A stretch of DNA of 64,000 nt from Liolophura sinensis (lineage: Eukaryota; Mollusca; Polyplacophora; Chitonida; Chitonidae), in the NCBI RefSeq assembly GCF_032854445.1, contig NC_088305.1:26436628-26500627 (forward strand). Direction: 5' to 3'. The notes under the pieces are model-generated. The model worked only from the letters and a program-made list of their open reading frames with translations, made no database searches and had not been told where the DNA came from. Below are positions 58,516 through 63,910 of this stretch, one piece after another (positions within the stretch are counted from its first letter, which is position 1; each line of letters begins with the position of its first letter). A program made the translations under genes and the position numbers.

Positions 58516-58532
58516 TATCTGGTGTAATAGTC

Positions 58533-59130
58533 TATTTTCTGGCATATATCTGGTGTAGGAGCTTTGGTTCTCTGACATATATCTGGGGTAGGAACTTTGG
58601 TTCTCTGACATATATCGGGTGTAGGAGCTTTAGTTTTCTGGTATATATCTGGTGTCGGAGATTTGGTTTTCTGGTATATATCGGGTGTAGGAGCTTTAGT
58701 TTTCTGGTATATATCTGGTTTAGGAGCTTTGGTTTTCTGATATATATCTGGTGTAGGAGCTTTGGTTTTCTGGCATATATATAGTGTAGGAGCTTTGGTT
58801 TTCTGGTATAAATCTGCTGTAGGAGCTTTGGTTTTCTGGCATATGTCGGGTGTAGGAGCTTTGGTTTTCTGGTATATATCTGGTGTAGGAGCTTTGGTTT
58901 TCTGGTATATATCTGGTGTAGGAGCTTTGGTTTTCTGACATATATCTGATGAACGAGGTTTGGTTTTCTGGTATATATCTGGTGTAGGAGCTTTGGTTTT
59001 CTGGTATATATCTGGTGTAGGAGCTTTGGTTTTCTGGTATATATCTGGTGTAGGAGCTTTGGTTTTCTGGTACATATCCGGCGTAGGAGCTTTGGTTTTC
59101 TGGTATATATCTGGTGAAATAATAATGATT
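58533..59130. repeat. 33-bp minisatellite, open in all three minus-strand frames
   Basis: About 18 units of the type GGTATATATCTGGTGTAGGA plus GCTTTGGTTTTCT. On minus they read as 11-residue repeats: YQKTKAPTPDI, YTRKPKLLHQI or IPENQSSYTRY depending on frame. A stray unit lies at 59190-59213. It abuts a truncated V-SINE at its left end. Confidence 0.85.
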
Positions 59131-59944
59131 GCCTAACATGCATGTATATCTAGTAAAAAAAGTCTTCAACTTTTAAACGAGTCTCGATTCCCTGGTATAT
59201 ATCTGGTGTAAAAATCTTGATGGTCTGCGTCAAATATTTTTCTAGGACATTTTCACAAGATTCTATAAACATTTTCAGAATGATCAAACCTTTTCTTACA
59301 TTCACAAGCAATCCGTCAATTTTGCATGAAAATAGGGATTTCAAACTTCACACCTACAGAAAAGGCCTTTGGTGGAATGGAAATTTCATCGCCTAGTGGT
59401 ATAAGTACAAGATGTAGACATCTGGCCACCATTCGCGTGGCACCGTCCATGGGCGTAACTTATATCAACATATCCACCACGATAATGTTCACATCATTTC
59501 TGGGGCGTGCAACTTCTGAGACCTTTCAAACAGAAAAAAAAATTGATGATTACATATGGTCAATGGTATACATGAAGAGACGAGAATGTACATGAGGGGC
59601 GGAGATACAGTTTCTATGACAACTTGGTGAAGGAGCATCTATGTGGTATAGTCCGGATTTTTTTCTCGTACGAATTGGTTGTTCAGAATTAAGTGGCAAT
59701 TGAGTGGTATAACAAAATGCATATATATGTACTAAATTTTGGTTTTACGGAAATTTTTCCAATATTCAAAATCACTTTGTAATGTTAAATCACCTTAAGA
59801 TTGAGCGTGTGTGGATTTATATGCTTCGGCCCCTATTATAATTGTTGTCTATGTAGGTAAGGTTTTTTTATTTACAACCAGTGTTGCGGTAATTGTAAAA
59901 CTAGACAAATTATACAATTACATATTAACTTATTGTTGGATTCA

Positions 59945-62034: not shown

Positions 62035-62376
62035 ATGAGTGTTGATCGTGTTTTCGGACCTTGGGACTATGTGGTATTTGGAATCGTTTTGATCGTGTCC
62101 GCAGGAATCGGGCTTTTCTACGCCTTCACCGGCGGAAAGCAGCGGACAACCAAAGAGTTCCTCATGGCCGACCGCAATATGAGGCTTCTGCCGATAGCAA
62201 TCTCCATTCTGGTGTCCTTTATTTCTGCAATCATGATTCTAGGGACGGCCGCTGAGATGCACACGGCAGGCACGGAGTACTGGATGTTAGCCTGGGGAAT
62301 GAGCATGTCCAACATCATGGCGGCCCTCATATTTGTACCGCTGTTACACCCCTTGAAACTGACCAGCTCCTATGAG
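62035..62376 (+). CDS. First coding exon of an SLC5-family sodium-coupled transporter (SLC5A8/A12/A6-like)
   Basis: SLC5A8/A12/A6 proteins are plasma-membrane symporters that use Na+ to import monocarboxylates or vitamins. The 114 codons start at ATG 62035 in a good context (CACCATGA); the open frame upstream contains no other ATG. The exon starts MSVDRVFGPWDYVVFGIVL. Helices lie near residues 9-30, 51-73 and 82-106. It carries the family segments GGKQRTTKEFLMADRNM and ILVSFISAIMILG; the SF.SA stretch forms part of the Na+ site in this fold. It ends HPLKLTSSYE just before donor 'gtaagt', where relatives continue YLE, so the phase 0 junction fits. The remaining exons lie beyond 64000. The exact subfamily and substrate cannot be fixed from one exon. 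Confidence 0.92.
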
Positions 62377-63910
62377 GTAAGTTGTCAAATGTAGGACATT
62401 CAAAGTTACCAGCTCAGATGAGATAAGTCCTCAAAAGCAGAATTCCTAAACTCACCAGCCCCTATGAGGTAAGTTGTCAAATGTAGGACATTCAAAGTTA
62501 CCAGCTCAGATGAGATAAGTCCTCAAAAGCAGAATTCCTAAACTCACCTGCTCCTATAAGGTAAGTTGTCAAACGTAGGATATTCAAAGTTACCAGCTCT
62601 CATGAGATAAGTTCTCAGAAGCAGAGTTCCTAAACTCACCTGCTCCTGTAAGGTAAGAAAACAATATCACCAGCTCATATAAGACAAGTCAGAAGAACAG
62701 GAAGAATCGAAAAATTGACACATGACGTCAGAAATAAGACTCTAGACCCTGTGATCGCGACGTTATCTTAGACTTGAGTCGAAAGTTTCACTTTAAAATT
62801 GTTATTTCCTACGTAACAGTTTCAAAATATTGCTTGACAACGTAAATTATGGGTAGGTTATTGTAAAAAAAATTTGAGCTAAAATAACGGAGAGGAGCAT
62901 ACCAAATTTAATGACTAAAATTTTGACTTATGTCTAAGATTGCTTCTTGATCTCAGGGCCAGAACCTCAGCAACCTGTATGATGCACGAGATGTATCAGA
63001 GGTAGGGCTCACAAACTTACAAGGTAAGTCGTATGAACGAAACCGACCTGACCACAATAACCGCTATGTTAAGGTACAAAAGAATGTAATTAATTTTGTA
63101 TGCGGGAAGACGTCAAAAGTGGGACTCCTAAAAAAGTCACCAGCTCCTGTGAAGTATGTTTTCGGAAGTAGAACTCCCTAAACTCATCAGCTCCTGTGAA
63201 GTAAGTCGTCAGAAATAGGGCACAATAAACTCACCAACTCCAGTGAAATAATTCGTCAGAGGTAGAACTCTATAAACTCACCAACTCCAGTGAAATAATT
63301 CGTCAGAGGTAGAACTCTATAAACTCACCAACTCCAGCGAAATAATTCGTCAGAGGCAGAACTCTATAAACTCACCTGCTTCTTTGGAGTAAGTGGTCAG
63401 TAGGAGAAATTCATAAACTCAACTCCTAGGACCTAAGTTGTTAGAAGTAGAACTCTACACACTCGCCAGCTCCTACGAAGTACATGTAAGTGGTCAGAAA
63501 TAGGACTCCATAAACTCACCAGCTCCAGTGAAGCAATTTGTCAGAAGTGGAACTCCATAAACTCACCAGCTCCTGTGAAGTAAATCGTCAGAAGTAGAAC
63601 TCCAGAAACTCACCAGCTCCTATGAGCTAAGTTCTCAGAAGTTTGAGCCTAGAAACTCACCAGCTCTCGTGATAAGTAGGATTCTTGAATATGGTAAGTA
63701 AAAGCTTCTGTAACTCATCATCTCCATCTATATGGAAAGTCGCCAGGACTTCTCACGCTCACCATATTTTATCCGGAAGTAAGATTCCTTAAACTCACCA
63801 GCTCCTAAGAGATAATCCATCAGAGGTATGGTTGTAGAAATTAACAGCTCCTGTGAGGTAAGTCGTGAGAGGTAAGATTATGGAAACCCGTTAGTTCAGA
63901 TTTTGGAATT
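62357..63910 (+). repeat. ~46-bp tandem array derived from the SLC5 exon-1/intron-1 junction
   Basis: About 23 diverged units start with the last ~20 exon bases (AAACTGACCAGCTCCTATGAG) and run through the donor GTAAGT and ~20 bases of intron. Units recur near 62409, 62455, 62500, 62546, 62592 and 62638, then from 63137 to about 63890. A non-repeat interval lies between about 62695 and 63130. Three consecutive units at 63232-63360 are almost identical, so local amplification is recent. Many units keep GAGGTAAGT or GAAGTAAGT and could act as decoy 5' splice sites. Confidence 0.9.

Follow-up and report, generated by a model that had tools for sequence, protein, structure and literature searches.

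The window analyzed in this study, a stretch of 64,000 nucleotides from the chiton Liolophura sinensis, contains the first coding exon of an SLC5-type sodium:solute symporter on the forward strand (62035–62376; Pfam SSF, E = 4.3e-05). The best PDB match of this exon is SMCT1 (7sl9), with a phmmer E-value of 4.8e-24 and residues 7–114 covered. The peptide at the 3′ end of the exon reads ...KLTSSYE, and the nucleotide sequence ends with ...AAACTGACCAGCTCCTATGAG, followed by GTAAGT (62377–62382, forward strand). This hexamer is presumed to be the authentic 5′ splice site, as GT follows the equivalent codon in 19 other SLC5 loci. Read-through translation meets an in-frame TAG at 62392–62394, 15 nt beyond this donor. 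Exon 2 of the gene (YLERRF...) was located at L001:2692, which gives an intron of 4315 bp, and an exon matching it is also present in an SLC5 paralogue. We infer that the first donor is the one in use at exon 1. The published chiton assembly, which initially appeared under the name Liolophura japonica and was later reassigned to L. sinensis (PMC12441733), is described in the available text as built from HiFi reads with a mean length of 8,347 bp (PMC11068029). Because the mean read exceeds the length of the 1.5-kb array described below, mis-assembly of this array is unlikely.

Tandem copies of the exon end and their source

The last 21 bases of the exon (62356–62376) form the left part of a repeat unit, which continues with GTAAGT and approximately 20 intron bases and recurs with a period of 46–47 bp. 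The unit spans the real exon–intron boundary of the host gene, and an earlier note on this DNA was right in describing it as ~46 bp derived from the exon end and its donor. Tandem repeats were detected by TRF at 62356–62657 (period 46/92) and 63133–63666 (period 47). Similarly, cyclic alignment to one 47-base unit gave scores of 179 (62348–62657) and 364 (63099–63874), compared with at most 12 for 15 control stretches taken from other parts of the window. Matches of at least 15/26 to a 26-base junction core number 22 over the 1.6 kb starting at 62357, counting the exon's own, and all but one of these reach at least 17. On the plus strand, the first 62 kb contain 24 matches at 15–16 and none higher, and the whole minus strand of the window contains 21 at 15–17. 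At a loose threshold of 60% identity to the exon part, 22 units are present beyond the exon copy, one of which (donor position 62984) sits in a degenerate stretch and is perhaps due to chance. Aligning the units gave 23 rows, counting one read at 62664, in agreement with the ~23 copies counted previously.

The array is split in two by a copy of a mobile element. The first sub-array (62356–62700, forward strand) was delineated by TRF and unit alignment and is a 92-bp higher-order repeat with alternating units, which start at 62356 (the exon itself), 62402, 62448, 62494, 62540, 62586, 62632, and 62664. The element (~62747–62958), recognized by arm pairing and genome matches, is an interspersed repeat with imperfect terminal inverted repeats; its arms (62747–62788 and 62917–62958) are 42 nt long and 76% complementary, and it has at least 39 other places in the genome at 79–86% identity (40 of 1488 candidates scored). 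Beyond it lies a degenerate stretch (62959–63130, forward strand), in which direct reading and the donor scan revealed a few unit-like remnants, including a donor-like AAG/GTAAGT at 63024. The second sub-array (63131–63874, forward strand; TRF and unit alignment) has a period of ~47 bp and more diverged units. Within it, unit alignment revealed three near-identical 47-bp units (63227–63367, forward strand), those at 63227 and 63274 being identical and that at 63321 differing at 2 sites. These units represent a recent duplication and may be suggestive of length instability; the earlier reading of them as ongoing expansion is borne out for the recent duplication and not for the word ongoing.

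To place the exon boundary in its family context, we searched the genome with the SLC5 exon at the protein level, which gave 34 matches including that of the window, and compared the boundary of the window gene with those of 19 of the 33 others. At 17 of the 19 loci, the match ends exactly on the counterpart of the codon for E in TSSYE (GAG, GAA, or CAG), and GT comes next. At L013 the match stops one codon short and is followed by CAG/GTAAGT, and at L008 the boundary is the same with an in-frame TAA just ahead of it. This TAA-bearing exon end (G000:C2:2963329-2964979) perhaps belongs to a pseudogene copy. No junction copies were found in the next 1.5 kb at any of the 19 loci, where the best 30-base match scored 14–19 compared with 28 in the window gene; the 19/30 match at L020 is within chance, since 21 of 456 random words did at least as well. 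One of the 19, an SLC5 paralogue with 84% protein identity, is located on the opposite strand at a distance of ~38 kb. Its sequence at this position is GACCAGCTCATACGAG followed by GTAAGG, and the array is absent from it. Other intron minisatellites are present in this paralogous gene away from the junction (L002:1422-1776 and L002:2997-3690). Searching the 609-Mb genome with 62377–62746 and 63131–63874 returned matches only to the array itself, very common words being skipped in the search. Moreover, no new intron at a new position accompanies the SLC5 array, the boundary being the same as in the paralogues. As the units align to the exon end, and this end is conserved in SLC5 paralogues that have no array, the proposal that the array grew from the gene's own exon end is upheld: judged from these alignments, the exon is the source of the array units.

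Candidate donors within the array

Donor strength was expressed as U1 duplex energy, by which the real SLC5 donor has a value of −10.2 kcal/mol. The donor scan revealed a decoy identical to the authentic site at 62469–62474 (forward strand), with GAG/GTAAGT and −10.2 kcal/mol, and the decoy at 63858 equals the real donor at −10.2 kcal/mol. The decoys at 62561 and 63024 follow at −10.1 kcal/mol and that at 62653 at −9.5 kcal/mol, so that five decoys are within 0.7 kcal/mol of the U1 pairing of the real donor. The donor at 63201, GAA/GTAAGT, reaches only −5.1 kcal/mol. Three sites had previously been singled out as being as good as the real donor; those given near 62468 and 63858 are indeed equal to it, and the one given near 63199 is far weaker. 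Three out-of-register sites, at 62853 (in the mobile element), 63002, and 63872, are also within 1 kcal/mol of the real donor. GT is kept in 9 of the 22 further units and missing from 13, so that many, but not all, units retain splice signals, as is the case in the amphioxus repeats called mirages. The array has 5.2 strong donor-like sites per kb, compared with 0.26 per kb for either strand of the first 62 kb of the window. On the antisense strand of the array (62356–63910), donor-like sites occur at 2.0 per kb against the background of 0.26, and the exon-derived ACTCACC reads GGTGAGT on this strand.

Because the TAG lies 15 nt past the real donor, any use of an SLC5 decoy would truncate the protein. 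A lengthening of exon 1 by decoys would always meet this stop. Among the three functional ideas put forward earlier, tolerance because the first donor is favored fits best, and no observation made here favors titration of U1 snRNP.

Junction arrays at other exon ends

The chiton genome is rich in minisatellites. The window contains 17 tandem arrays of at least 2.5 copies (period of at least 20), which occupy 9.3% of its sequence, and arrays of at least 2.5 copies occupy 8.7% of 18 other SLC5 junction stretches; the density around SLC5 junctions is 0.27–0.30 arrays per kb. As tandem arrays make up ~9% of the sampled sequence, some are expected to hit junctions. By chance, ~1–2% of donors would be expected inside a first unit, assuming a 50-base target, and 1 of 20 SLC5 donors was observed there. 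Another array, 33 bp × 17.6 at 58535–59116, lies inside an antisense 203-aa ORF (58532–59143), whose Pfam matches (PF23698 at 1.6e-15, and others) may be repeat driven. Comparing ten ORFs of the window with Pfam returned nothing useful besides one match, which is probably repeat driven. Elsewhere in the assembly, G000:C99 has seven COX1 matches ~15.5 kb apart, which represent the mitochondrial genome in tandem within one contig and are probably an assembly feature; G000:C632 has one such match. An amphioxus host was considered and rejected: mitochondrial AGR codons fit serine in the COX1 frame and in a second frame taken for ND2, and the genome gave no GFP-family match, a result of little weight because the control genomes gave none either.

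The genome was searched for three exact AGGTAAGT words 30–60 bases apart, with the reversed word as a control. The SLC5 array is itself too widely spaced to match this pattern. The donor word gave 808 matches and the reversed 8-mer 643 (overlapping matches; raw 8-mer frequencies), and on contig C1 up to 40.5 Mb these correspond to 14 distinct donor-bearing and 12 reversed-word arrays, grouped by eye. A genome-wide enrichment of donor-bearing arrays is therefore unconvincing.

We grouped 26 donor arrays on C1 by eye from the listed matches and read the 5′ end of each. An open segment was present at the start of 22, and segments chosen by eye from all 22 were compared with Pfam; L024, L035, and L045 start at or near the edge of the examined stretch, and L041 has no open segment. 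At least five of the 26 arrays start at a homology-supported coding exon end, namely those of NDUFS2, POLR3A, IFT57, GH31, and GCNT. The Pfam matches at the array-start exons are to NDUFS2 (2.3e-14), GH31 glycosidase (7.2e-13), and Core-2/I-branching enzyme (GCNT; 1.4e-06), and the POLR3A exon (RNA polymerase III RPC1) matches 7a6h at 2.4e-08. All five NDUFS2 family matches are found on one 15-kb stretch of C1, ending 170 bp upstream of the array start. Likewise, the POLR3A array is flanked on the same strand by consecutive matches belonging to the gene on C1, this being one of three loci with the domain. The IFT57 segment reaches a Pfam E-value of 4.6e-06 and 26.3 of 40 bits, which is under the curated cut-off, and had no PDB match up to E = 0.1. 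It was counted because other IFT57 exon matches flank it in order on the same strand: the array lies between matches to model positions 218–309 and 329–360, and its own exon supplies 307–329. Four further donor arrays on C1 (L025, L036, L039, and L042) have open exon-like starts without a supported family and are likely to be more mirages; the L036 and L039 segments had no meaningful PDB match. These four were left out of the count, as was L030, whose segment matched only polycystin-2 at E = 0.053. None of the 12 reversed-word control arrays gave a homology-supported exon end among the 10 of 17 open segments compared, which came from 8 arrays. No control segment passed the curated cut-off, although DUF3645 reached 2.8e-05, just under its cut-off, in a repetitive segment. 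The comparison of 5/26 with 0/12 is not significant alone.

Each of the five sister arrays starts with the exon end as its first unit, and this end recurs together with its donor in the later units. The first donor of POLR3A, CAG/GTAAAT, has a value of −8.3 kcal/mol, and 11 of 12 later units are better, ten being CAG/GTAAGT at −11.6 kcal/mol. Similarly, the first GH31 donor, CAG/GTATGT, is at −7.8 kcal/mol, with 9 of 13 later units better and one equal. Reading through the first donor meets a stop within 5–65 nt in SLC5, POLR3A, IFT57, and NDUFS2, after 197 nt in GCNT, and after 275 nt in GH31. The unit of the GH31 array (L034, G000:C1:26351974-26353973) measures 39 bp and is divisible by three, and the frame contains no stop over the 275 nt beyond the first donor. 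Splicing at any of the first several decoys would therefore lengthen the protein by repeated peptide instead of ending it. GT is kept in 58 of 60 further units of the five sister arrays within the stretches examined, a retention that is biased because the loci were picked for intact donors.

Origin and fate of the copied junctions

Tandem repeats spanning exon–intron boundaries were described as mirages in amphioxus Adh3 and globin genes (PMC3087553) and in amphioxus PGBD5 (PMC3902484), in the parts of these reports available to us. We consider it quite probable that the SLC5 array is such a mirage, a minisatellite of copied junctions that was born by chance and is tolerated as a series of intronic decoys, with no further function needed. 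Duplication by slippage or unequal exchange would have taken in 21 coding bases, the donor, and ~20 intron bases. The extra junctions would then have landed downstream of the authentic donor, within the intron, and because they are intronic the protein would be unchanged whenever the first donor is spliced. Further copies would be tolerated and then drift, and junction arrays may survive where arrays within an exon would not. Since tandem arrays make up ~9% of the sampled sequence, random array birth combined with splicing tolerance would suffice. The conservation of the boundary at the 19 SLC5 loci compared, all of them free of a junction array, counts for the tolerated-decoy reading, whereas the first donors of POLR3A and GH31, weaker than most of their decoys, count against it, as does human IFI6, which is said to use downstream units as donors (PMC4526556, available text). 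Against a birth by chance stand the SLC5 hit, a single event among 20 junctions, and the 808 matches compared with 643, which may reflect some preference for junctions.

The drift of the copies was followed by counting parsimony changes on a tree built from 22 aligned units, of which four were partial, after insertions had been taken out by hand. Exon-derived columns show 15, 12, and 14 changes at codon positions 1, 2, and 3, and this lack of codon-position bias suggests that the copies drift as non-coding DNA. The mean number of changes per column is 1.8 in the donor hexamer, 1.95 in exon-derived columns, 2.75 in other intron columns, and ~2.3 overall. A selective loss of decoys was also sought on this tree, with no clear signal. 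Overall, neither retention nor purging of decoys is clearly visible in the unit tree.

The human IFI6 minisatellite has a unit of ~12 bp, much shorter than that of the chiton SLC5 array. Its units serve as a tandem series of donors at a single exon end, comparable to the donor copies described here, and it is described as providing multiple used splice donors in IFI6 (6-16, G1P3) (Turri 1995, via the available text of PMC4526556). On this precedent, the SLC5 decoys could serve as alternative donors, giving early-stop transcripts through which the array would tune SLC5 expression by unproductive splicing and decay. The five decoys close to the real donor in U1 pairing and the TAG that any of them would meet after 15 nt are in line with this proposal. 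However, 13 of 22 units have lost GT and selection for keeping donors has left no sign, the GTAAGT columns having 1.8 changes against 2.3 for all columns, and the close SLC5 paralogue lacks the array. We regard decoy use as unlikely.

The opposite proposal, that selection inactivates donor copies because they harm splicing, draws on the +1 base, where 10 of the 22 rows have A (8 rows) or C (2 rows) in place of G, with one gap, and where the 4 parsimony changes exceed the mean of ~2.3. The six donor columns together, however, change no more than the others, and the sister arrays retain nearly all of their GT (58/60, in loci picked for intact donors), which makes purging a poor candidate. An equally improbable view is that a junction-specific process, such as DNA breaks or U1- or R-loop-linked events, makes donor arrays beyond random birth. 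It would account for supported exon ends at the start of five or more of the 26 donor arrays as against none of 12 controls (10 of 17 control segments compared), but donor arrays are not clearly commoner than reversed-word arrays (14 and 12 on C1 to 40.5 Mb), and only 1 of 20 SLC5 donors was hit at 0.27–0.30 arrays per kb. Finally, a dispersed repeat or introner-like element resembling the exon end by accident is scarcely credible: although an interspersed element does sit inside the array, both array halves match only themselves genome-wide, and the part taken from the exon belongs to conserved coding sequence.

A chance-born, tolerated mirage remains our preferred reading, and the earlier belief that no family of donor-derived satellites had been described does not stand, given the amphioxus mirages and human IFI6 (PMC3087553, PMC3902484, and PMC4526556, in their available parts). 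Like the SLC5 array, the amphioxus mirages (Adh3; BflGb6, BflGb9; PGBD5; TnC) have units that span the exon–intron boundary of ordinary genes, and many of these units are described as keeping their AG/GT signals. The SLC5 unit length also falls within the minisatellite-like range of mirages (10–160 bp units; PMC3087553, available text), and the same source reports that mirages leave the regular splicing of amphioxus Adh3 and globin mRNA undisturbed. The hosts differ, being cephalochordate there and a mollusc here, and we take the cephalochordate host as the place of description and not as a mechanistic requirement. In addition, the SLC5 array has 22–23 further units with a mobile element inside, and in the chiton POLR3A and GH31 arrays, in contrast to the amphioxus mirages, most decoys outscore the authentic donor. 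Internal tandem repeats at exon–intron boundaries in human segmental duplications are described as altering exon/intron structure between paralogues (PMC2812944, available text), whereas the SLC5 intron is at the same position as in its paralogues. Copied junctions are mentioned neither for an intronic minisatellite of C. elegans nor for a metallothionein intron of an earthworm in the parts of the reports available. None of the titles listed in the literature searched, mostly outside subscription journals, reports a junction-spanning repeat in a mollusc, and within this scope the mollusc host and the recurrence in conserved genes appear to be new.

It is possible, at slightly less than even confidence, that donor-type mirages are genome-wide in the chiton (hundreds or more), including the housekeeping genes NDUFS2, POLR3A, and IFT57, and that several authentic donors are weaker than about ten exact downstream decoys a few dozen bases apart. 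If this is true and normal mRNA is made, exon-side information or the order of synthesis, and not donor strength, must decide which donor is chosen, and the arrays would amount to a ready-made collection of contests among multiple 5′ splice sites. Such arrays are natural constructs that set one real donor against many equal or stronger copies, from which the rules of 5′ splice-site choice, whether by strength, position, or exon sequence, would be readable in ordinary RNA-seq. In the Rogers model, introns are reportedly gained via tandem duplication of AG/GT junctions, and the SLC5 array shares this junction duplication without a new intron. Our analysis extends the mirage phenomenon from lancelets to molluscs, where it recurs in conserved genes, and indicates how large a load of duplicated junctions a gene can bear, which is a precondition of duplication models of intron gain.
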